31,863 nt of DNA from a virus. The notes under the pieces are model-generated. The model was not told where the DNA came from and searched no databases. It saw only the letters and a program-made list of their open reading frames with translations. Location of the stretch: IMG/VR virus record IMGVR_UViG_3300025647_000160, positions 1-31,863 of that record. One strand, written 5' to 3'. This document shows, piece by piece, positions 22,468 to 24,559 of this stretch (positions are counted from its first letter, which is position 1; every line of letters starts with the position of its first letter). The translations under genes were made by a program, and so were the position numbers.

Positions 22468-23715
22468 ATGACAGATAACGAAGTCAAAGACATTTGCTCG
22501 GTATGTACCACCGAGTATAGTGTGGACGACTTAATTACAACTGAATACGATAGTCTTGTATGCGGTGATTGCGTTACCACTTGCGAGCGTTGTGACAGCG
22601 TTGGCTCAATCAATGACGCTTTCCACACAGTAGATGGTAACGACATCTGGTGTGAGTCATGTACCGAGCGCAGAGCGCATTGGTGTGAGCGTTGTGAGGA
22701 GTATGACTCAGGCACTTCGTTCTACATCTCAGATGTGCAAGAGTCTTGGTGTGAGGGTTGCGCTGATGCTTCTGCTTACTGGTGTGACGAATGTGATGAG
22801 TACAATGCAGACGGATGCGATAGGTGTTCTGATGACATGAGTAGTGACGGCTCACGCCTTATTCATGATTACAGTTACCGCCCTGATGCTATCTTCCACT
22901 CGACCAACAAGGATGAGCGATTGTTCTTTGGTATCGAGATAGAAGTAGAGGCTAAGGATGACCTTCGTGAATCTGCTGAGTATGCACATCAACTAGAGTC
23001 TATGGACTTAGCCTATCTTAAGCATGACGGCTCGCTTAATAACGGGTTCGAGATAGTCACACACCCTATGTCTCATGACTTCTTTAAGAATGAGGCTGGT
23101 GACTTCTTTGCAGTAATGGAAGGTCTGCGTTCACAAAGTGGCATACGAGTCAAGTCTTGGGATACAAGAACATGTGGTTTGCACATTCACATCTCACGCA
23201 CAGGGTTCAATGGTGGTTCGCACATGCACCGATTCCTCAACCTTGTGTATTCCAATCCTGACTTCTACTCAACCCTAGCAGGTCGGACATCTGACCAATG
23301 GGCTAAGTTCACAGACATCTGGCAACGCGAATACAAGCGTGATGCTAATGGTGAGCGTGTATGGAGTGAGGATACAGGGTACGAAATTACTGACAAGCGC
23401 ACCTTCATGCATAAGTTGCAACCCGACCGCAACTCAGACCGATACTCAGCGGTCAATACCAACAATCGTGAGACACTAGAGATGCGTATCTTTAGAGGTA
23501 GCGTTAATGGTGACACGATTAAAGCCCAGATAGACTTAGCGCATGCCAGCGTTGAGTACACCCGAACCCTTACTGTCCAAGATGTGCGCGAAGGTGCATT
23601 GTCTGCCGATAACTTCATGTGGTATGTATTCCAGCATGAAGCGTTGTACCCAGAACTAACCGCCCGTATAGATAAATTAGTTGTCGGGTTAGCCCGACAG
23701 AATGAGAGTGTGTAA
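22468..23715 (+). CDS. Amidoligase with N-terminal zinc-ribbon array
   Basis: 415 aa. Residues 10-120 contain eight C-x2-C pairs (at 10, 32, 39, 62, 73, 95, 106 and 117), enough for four zinc sites. The catalytic domain follows with GIEIEVE (155-161), YLKHDGSL (183-190), FEIVTHPMS (194-202), CGLHIHIS (236-243) and a late ETLEMRIFRGS motif. This is the pattern of the Amidoligase_2 (glutamine-synthetase-fold) family, which joins amines or amino groups to carboxylates using ATP. The next gene is a class II glutamine amidotransferase that could deliver ammonia. The last codons read through hairpin copy 6 (VGLARQ). The substrate, perhaps a peptide or cell-wall component, is unknown. Confidence 0.85.
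   Translation: MTDNEVKDICSVCTTEYSVDDLITTEYDSLVCGDCVTTCERCDSVGSINDAFHTVDGNDIWCESCTERRAHWCERCEEYDSGTSFYISDVQESWCEGCADASAYWCDECDEYNADGCDRCSDDMSSDGSRLIHDYSYRPDAIFHSTNKDERLFFGIEIEVEAKDDLRESAEYAHQLESMDLAYLKHDGSLNNGFEIVTHPMSHDFFKNEAGDFFAVMEGLRSQSGIRVKSWDTRTCGLHIHISRTGFNGGSHMHRFLNLVYSNPDFYSTLAGRTSDQWAKFTDIWQREYKRDANGERVWSEDTGYEITDKRTFMHKLQPDRNSDRYSAVNTNNRETLEMRIFRGSVNGDTIKAQIDLAHASVEYTRTLTVQDVREGALSADNFMWYVFQHEALYPELTARIDKLVVGLARQNESV
23682..23699 (+). promoter_or_regulatory. 18-bp hairpin repeat, copy 6 (inside the amidoligase 3' end)
   Basis: Perfect copy, translated as part of the amidoligase C-terminus and ending 17 nt before the next gene's ATG at 23717. Just upstream is a weak promoter-like pair (TTGTAC, 17 bp, TATAGA; 23644-23672). 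That a hairpin is tolerated in coding sequence at this exact distance from a start supports a role for the spacing. Confidence 0.8.
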
Positions 23716-23716
23716 G

Positions 23717-24559
23717 ATGTGTTTATTAGTTGTAGCCTCGCCTAATTCCACGCCTCGTAAGAAGGACTTGGAATGTGCATCATGTAATAATCCGCATGGC
23801 TTCGGCTTTGCGGTAGTCACGCCAGATGGCATTGTCACTGGTCGTGGTATGTCCAGCAAGAAAGTAATCAAGCAATTCCTAGAAGTACGCAAGCAGTATC
23901 CAGATAGTTACGCCATGTTCCATGCTCGCTATGCAACGCATGGTGTCAAGAATGAGGAGAACTGTCATCCGTTCAAGGTTCCGTATGATGCTACCTTTGC
24001 ACCAGATACATACCTTGCACACAATGGTATCCTTGACATCAACATCAGCGCTGGCGACCGCAGAAGTGATACGCGTATCTTTGCAGAGGATACCTTGCCT
24101 GCTATGGGTGGTGTGTCTGCATTAGATGACGACCATGTGTGGGCTATGGTTAGCAAGTGGTCACTAGGTAGCAAGATTGTTATCTTTACCCTAGACCCTA
24201 AGGCTAAGGAGACTTGCTACATCATCAACGAATCATCAGGCTTCTGGGACGACGAGGGCATGTGGTGGTCTAACTCTACCTACAAGCAATCATCATGGTC
24301 TACCTATCTAGGTACGCCTAGTGCTACATCAGCCAATGCGCTCAATGATAGTGGTTATGAAGAAGTTGCTGCATGTGCTCACTGCCTAAGTGTTGGTGAG
24401 TTAGACTCCAACCCGTACTATTGCGAGATGTGCTTTACTTGCTATGACTGCGATGGTATGTACCAAGATACCTGCCTATGCTGGACACCCGAGTCAGACC
24501 GCTACGCATCCAACAAGAAGGGTAAGGTATGGCAGTATGACAACTACTTCGGATTCTAG
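23717..24559 (+). CDS. Class II glutamine amidotransferase with C-terminal zinc ribbons
   Basis: 280 aa from the ATG at 23717, so that Cys2 becomes the N-terminal nucleophile after Met removal (MCLLVVASPN). Further family motifs: HGFGF (27-31), HARYATHG (69-76, Arg71) and AHNGIL (101-106, Asn-Gly). This domain hydrolyses glutamine to ammonia. The C-terminal 70 residues hold a Cys cluster (CAHC, then YYCEMCFTCYDCDG, then CLCW), similar in style to the zinc array that begins the amidoligase. The two genes are adjacent, one base apart, and probably make a complex. An earlier in-frame ATG (23702) would bury the Cys and is unlikely. Confidence 0.85.
   Translation: MCLLVVASPNSTPRKKDLECASCNNPHGFGFAVVTPDGIVTGRGMSSKKVIKQFLEVRKQYPDSYAMFHARYATHGVKNEENCHPFKVPYDATFAPDTYLAHNGILDINISAGDRRSDTRIFAEDTLPAMGGVSALDDDHVWAMVSKWSLGSKIVIFTLDPKAKETCYIINESSGFWDDEGMWWSNSTYKQSSWSTYLGTPSATSANALNDSGYEEVAACAHCLSVGELDSNPYYCEMCFTCYDCDGMYQDTCLCWTPESDRYASNKKGKVWQYDNYFGF

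Follow-up and report, generated by a model that had tools for sequence, protein, structure and literature searches.

Genome context of the amidoligase and amidotransferase genes

The window, that is the whole stretch of DNA analyzed here, is a viral record 31,863 bases long. Its left part carries minus-strand head and packaging genes (capsid, portal and large terminase). Small genes, whiB among them, form a rightward block after these, and a minus-strand replication block (sigma factor, primase, helicase) comes next. An amidoligase gene and the gene of a class II glutamine amidotransferase (GAT) sit next to each other in the rightward non-structural region beside whiB, away from the structural genes (Table 1). 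Two 'Caudovirales sp. ct2KA10' records have large terminases 76% identical to that of the window. One of these records is LanE43-AprF5 (F5), one of the two phages first brought into culture for the freshwater order 'Ca. Nanopelagicales' (PMC10202952). Because of this terminase similarity and the presence of whiB, the window phage is most likely a freshwater actinophage of the LanE43-AprF5 family.

Table 1. Features at the amidoligase/GAT locus, with positions in the window.
Feature	Position	Strand	Basis or remark
Palindrome copy TGTCGGGTCAGCCCGACA	22437..22454	.	just upstream of amidoligase start
Amidoligase (GS-fold COOH-NH2 ligase), 415 aa	22468..23715	+	Pfam PF12224, structure model, fold match
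N-terminal zinc array, eight C-x2-C pairs, residues 10-120, four predicted zinc sites	22495..22827	+	Cys conservation
GS-fold catalytic core, residues about 150-409	22915..23694	+	GxExE, DGS...E, GxHxHxSR, RYxxxN and ExRxF motifs
Palindrome copy	23682..23699	.	3' end of amidoligase gene, 17 bases before GAT start
Class II GAT (N-terminal nucleophile), 280 aa, Cys2 start	23717..24559	+	conserved MCLL start, GlmS fold
C-terminal eight-Cys tail of GAT, residues 220-255	24374..24481	+	Cys conservation, likeness to amidoligase 84-118
Palindrome copy	24560..24577	.	directly after GAT stop codon

The pair is bracketed by a palindrome, TGTCGGGTTAGCCCGACA, that occurs eight times between 20304 and 25689 (0.1 copies expected) and is confined within the window to the rightward gene block, with several copies standing 12-21 bases before start codons. 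Relatives L003-L068 carry repeats at the matching gene boundaries, and the palindrome sequence is particular to each genome (for example GGTCGGCCAGCCGACC, GTTCGGTTAACCGAAC, TGCCGTATAATACGGCA and GTCCGATAATCGGAC), as if the palindromes co-evolved with a genome-specific regulator. No repeat of this kind is seen in the syntenic isolate F5. Downstream of the pair, a gene at 25079-25210 that overlaps the start of whiB encodes an acidic mini-protein of 43 residues. It is conserved in many relatives, where its ends are fixed (MSYEPPLDDD... and ...PDRMWGDD) and its middle is variable, sometimes containing C-x2-C pairs. We did not find it in F5, which also lacks the amidoligase/GAT pair.

Elsewhere in the window, a gene of the HslV/proteasome-like peptidase family (15504-16046, minus strand; phrog_1040, E=1e-24) adjoins the portal gene and possibly encodes a head maturation protease. 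An alanine/GCT-rich repeat stretch with many copies in a 12-base register occupies 7842-8210 (minus strand) within the open reading frame 7031-8365. We considered DNA hypermodification and saw no support for it in the window. The pair had no match in PADLOC, and its identity as a defence system was dropped. Likewise, we abandoned an early-class placement based on where the genes lie with respect to a phage RNA polymerase, which is present in 1/14 records (ctgrD200 only).

Both catalytic cores are intact

The amidoligase scores 36.5 bits against Pfam Amidoligase_2 (E=6.4e-9), above the curated cut-off of 22. Its structure model (pLDDT 88.9) matches glutamine synthetase (GS) and glutamate-cysteine ligase structures with Z scores of 11-12.4 over about 180-220 residues, all within residues 147-415 and hence covering the catalytic core only. 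YbdK is matched at Z 12.4 (rmsd 3.8-4.0, 217-220 residues) and glutamine synthetases at up to Z 12.2, and a plant glutamate-cysteine ligase is among the top structural matches. The motif residues do not vary among 62 distinct relatives from related viral contigs. By analogy with GS, we take GxExE, GxHxHxS and ExRxF to supply acidic metal-binding and arginine phosphate-binding residues. Across the wider set, the strict amidoligase pattern is present in 147/160 proteins, and the remaining 13 may break only the spacing of the pattern. Profile, fold and motifs all place the protein among the Amidoligase_2/GS-fold COOH-NH2 ligases.

The longest GAT open reading frame opens at 23702. The start that relatives keep is the ATG at 23717, one base past the amidoligase stop, where the protein begins MCLLV (MCLL in 71/72). 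We took this conserved ATG as the true start, which makes the cysteine residue 2, the position that class II enzymes require, and Cys2 is thus the expected catalytic nucleophile. The GAT motifs (Cys after Met, HxR..TxG, HNG and SDT) show no variation among 72 distinct relatives apart from one conservative change in SDT. They are kept in 174 of 178 distinct GATs when distant phages are included, and the failures are mostly truncated proteins. A model of the GAT core superimposes on the glutaminase domain of GlmS with Z 13.7 over 178 residues, on PurF with Z 12.6 and on EgtC with Z 12.1; NCBIfam and PDB profile searches with the window GAT favor the GlmS/PurF glutaminases. Because the protein falls under both Pfam cut-offs (GATase_6, 20.4 bits against 27; GATase_4, 17.5 against 23), we file it in the wider class II GAT superfamily on the strength of fold and motifs. 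The core also contains a further cysteine pair, C20-x2-C23, which the first-pass annotation had not pointed out. The enzyme assignments of the first-pass annotation are therefore supported for both genes, and the active sites proved intact rather than degenerate on detailed alignment.

A cellular origin of the GAT family was considered and rejected. The sole match among the genome contigs searched is L110 (RFQY01000240.1), a 3.3-kb contig binned as a Rhodobacteraceae MAG that carries the same pair (GAT identity 68%) and is probably a phage contig misplaced in the MAG.

Cysteine arrays on both proteins

The amidoligase opens with eight C-x2-C pairs, as the first-pass annotation had noticed. In the first half of the array they are spaced C-x2-C-x18-C-x2-C-x3-C-x2-C-x19-C-x2-C and, seven residues on, in the second half C-x2-C-x18-C-x2-C-x7-C-x2-C-x7-C-x2-C. 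The sixteen putative ligands are predicted to form four zinc sites. Exactly eight pairs lie in residues 10-120 where 1.9 are expected, and none of 20,000 composition-preserving shuffles reaches eight. Fourteen of the 16 cysteines are invariant in the 62 distinct amidoligases; the other two, C76 and C120, are mostly replaced by histidine. Zinc ligands commonly swap cysteine for histidine. Pfam and PDB sequence searches with the array returned no convincing identity.

The cysteine cluster that ends the GAT also stood up to scrutiny. Its cysteines (220, 223, 236, 239, 242, 245, 253 and 255) form four overlapping C-x2-C units, where 1.0 are expected (p=0.006 within the tail region), and a C-x-C, and all eight are unchanged in 72 distinct GATs. 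For array and tail alike, cysteine conservation is stronger evidence than the chance statistics. The tail is modeled largely at pLDDT <60, much of it <50.

Whether the two arrays match, as had been claimed, is a closer call. In a profile comparison, the GAT tail aligned at a score of 27.8 (probability 66%) with residues 84-118 of the amidoligase. In 200 permutations that preserved the cysteines and shuffled the non-Cys columns, the mean was 14.1 and the maximum 27.7; the likeness thus exceeds every permutation, but only barely the best of them. The alignment suggests that a zinc unit was copied between the two genes.

The layout was also said to be unusual for a phage. This holds for the expansion of the array and not for the zinc site itself, because most paired amidoligases already have one C-x2-C/C-x2-C site: two C-x2-C pairs, that is one site, are found in the amidoligase of 72/89 loci whose GAT lacks a tail. 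The window array thus appears to be an expansion of a common one-site feature of paired amidoligases. The GAT tail is found in a single well-supported clade (99/96) that holds the window's family and mycobacteriophage Marvin; one member, L225, scored no full tail. The tail probably arose once. Wherever a tail-bearing locus has a complete amidoligase, that amidoligase carries at least three C-x2-C pairs. Given the probable single origin of the tail, the association amounts to roughly one evolutionary event. Docking of the two enzymes through their zinc modules is plausible rather than established, because the array also occurs without the tail in some phages: L108 (ctgrD200), L109 and L116 combine six to nine amidoligase pairs with a tail-less GAT. 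We consider it unlikely that the tail is a copied amidoligase zinc unit through which both enzymes assemble into a transamidase that is held together by a zinc scaffold and recognizes a particular host macromolecule, and we know of no glutamine amidotransferase for which such a mode of assembly has been described.

The largest array that we saw, with ten C-x2-C pairs, belongs to the amidoligase of L224 (IMGVR_UViG_3300006109_000547), where the gene order is reversed and the GAT comes first.

The two genes are linked across phages

Among 167 distinct loci in which the sequence upstream of the GAT is long enough, 162 have the amidoligase directly beside it. The loci were gathered by similarity searches seeded with the pair or one of its members, and many contigs are fragments; the adjacency rates therefore describe these families, not all phage GATs. 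Marvin, OM43 phage MEP402 and ctgrD200 are among the phages with an adjacent pair. Among the five exceptions, Bifidobacterium phage BA720P3 and Rhizobium phage N3_13 encode a divergent amidoligase upstream, a few genes away (in BA720P3 recognized by motifs only), L223 has a gap of 515 bases, and near the GATs of L162 and L225 we found no amidoligase. F5, a cultured relative whose core genes are syntenic with those of the window, has neither gene. This distribution goes against the refuting case that had been named, in which the two genes do not co-occur in relatives, and indicates that amidoligase and GAT are gained or lost as one unit.

No fused amidoligase-GAT protein occurs among the loci examined, and we saw no gene for a target that is strictly associated with the pair. 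Gamma-glutamylcyclotransferase (GGCT) was found in 0/25 and 0/33 pair-bearing phage records, with control genomes positive, and had no match among the window proteins scanned. A search with the ATP-grasp protein of the Rhizobium phage identified no relative in the window or in 22 related records. PF14395, the second ligase of the larger cassette, gave no match either, and the control genomes were equally without one.

Relation to known systems

The phage peptidoglycan modification cassette is said to have its source in Iyer et al. 2009. As a five-gene 'peptidoglycan modification cassette' it has been described for Pseudoalteromonas phage PSA-HP1, RIO-1, phiEco32, LUZ24 and others (PMC5498523), and the UFV-P2 annotation lists its component genes. 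The larger cassette has been proposed to modify cell-wall peptides and so block superinfection (PMC5498523, PMC10580990); we found no test of this proposal in the papers covered. In OM43 phages, the amidoligase/GAT pair has been noted as auxiliary metabolic genes (PMC10580990). The first-pass annotation was thus right that such neighborhoods are known from comparative genomics. The pair itself has precedents of two kinds: in phiEco32, LUZ24 and PSA-HP1-like phages it forms the core of the five-gene cassette, whereas Marvin and the OM43 phages have the two genes alone.

Like the window, the five-gene cassette places an Amidoligase_2 protein and a class II GAT in a non-structural region. The window has two of the five genes, with neither a GGCT nor an ATP-grasp relative found, and bears zinc modules on both proteins. 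The OM43 phages MEP401 and MEP402 (PMC10580990) share with it an adjacent bare pair without GGCT; their two genes overlap, the amidoligase has two C-x2-C pairs and the GAT lacks a tail. In Mycobacterium phage Marvin (cluster S), gp105-gp106 form an adjacent pair with the same GAT cysteine tail pattern and a cysteine-rich amidoligase start. Its GAT is about 32-34% identical to that of the window, and its amidoligase has a smaller array (3-4 C-x2-C) and an extra C-terminal region. What is new, as judged from the proteins compared, is the expanded zinc array together with the GAT tail, the latter confined to one actinophage clade. We found no description of either in the literature covered, which left aside the primary Marvin and Iyer papers.

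In Gram-positive bacteria, MurT/GatD and AsnB/LtsA use glutamine to amidate the stem carboxylates of peptidoglycan. MurT belongs to the Mur ligases, GatD to the class I-type GATs, and LtsA is a fused AsnB-type enzyme; none has the GS fold. Their chemistry is possible for the window pair, but their folds differ from that of its GS-fold amidoligase.

Possible functions of the pair

We regard it as an even call that the pair constitutes one glutamine-dependent amidating enzyme on two polypeptides, used on a host molecule. This is the simplest view because a glutamine-hydrolyzing enzyme and an ATP-dependent carboxylate-amine ligase are encoded in translational contact. The GAT would hydrolyze glutamine through Cys2 and pass ammonia to the amidoligase, which would use Mg-ATP to activate a carboxylate in the form of its acyl phosphate and then form the amide. 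The zinc array and the zinc tail would take no part in catalysis and would serve recognition, holding the substrate and possibly the partner. A peptide of the host cell wall or some other macromolecule of the host would be the most likely target, and the product that modifies it would come from a non-structural and probably early gene. Counting against this reading are the lack of any fusion and the nearly equal fit of the GAT to EgtC, a gamma-glutamyl hydrolase; for no member of the pair did we find biochemical evidence in the papers covered.

The fit to EgtC belongs to the main rival, which we hold to be possible but rather doubtful: the amidoligase would make a gamma-glutamyl amide, as EgtA and glutamate-cysteine ligase do, and the GAT would cleave it in the manner of EgtC or DUG3, so that the pair would synthesize or recycle a gamma-glutamyl peptide instead of channeling ammonia. 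The prominence of YbdK and the plant glutamate-cysteine ligase among the structural matches agrees with such a cycle, as do the best NCBIfam match of the Bifidobacterium phage GAT, which is to EgtC, the GGCT and ATP-grasp genes of larger cassettes, and the classing of the GAT as degradative by the PSA-HP1 authors (PMC5498523). However, the window GAT itself fits best with the GlmS/PurF glutaminases, and neither the GGCT nor the Rhizobium-phage-like ATP-grasp protein turned up in the records searched. A role in auxiliary nitrogen metabolism, in which the pair raises glutamine/glutamate turnover of the host, has been proposed for Phage-ZRK32, which encodes amidoligase and GAT together with two further genes (PMC10945688). 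A growth effect of this phage with its four such genes is published, but we saw no gene-level experiment there that links the effect to them, and a zinc array of one to four sites would suggest macromolecular recognition over bulk metabolism. We therefore think this role improbable here.

Protein tagging has, in our estimate, very little chance of being correct. Here the amidoligase would act like PafA, the GS-fold pupylation ligase, and attach an acidic phage protein, such as the 25079-25210 product, to host proteins. PafA and Dop do appear among the Foldseek matches of the amidoligase, and the mini-protein has fixed ends, is conserved in many relatives and was not found in the pair-less F5. 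But PafA and Dop rank no higher than the metabolic GS enzymes. Moreover, a pupylation-type modifier has a C-terminal Glu or Gln and a gene linked to that of its ligase, whereas the mini-protein ends in DD, without a GGE/GGQ-type end, and overlaps whiB and not the pair. The suggestion that it is the target of the enzymes gains no support either, as nothing links it to the pair rather than to whiB.

Implications

The amidoligase-GAT pair has a wide distribution in phages, among them relatives of those infecting the Nanopelagicales, which are abundant in freshwater. Its substrate has been a matter of guesswork since 2009. The two-gene core persists as a unit in evolution where the other cassette genes tested are missing, which leaves fewer biochemistries to be examined. 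The predicted zinc modules may serve as handles for pulling down the substrate and the partner, and among the relatives mycobacteriophage Marvin is amenable to genetics.
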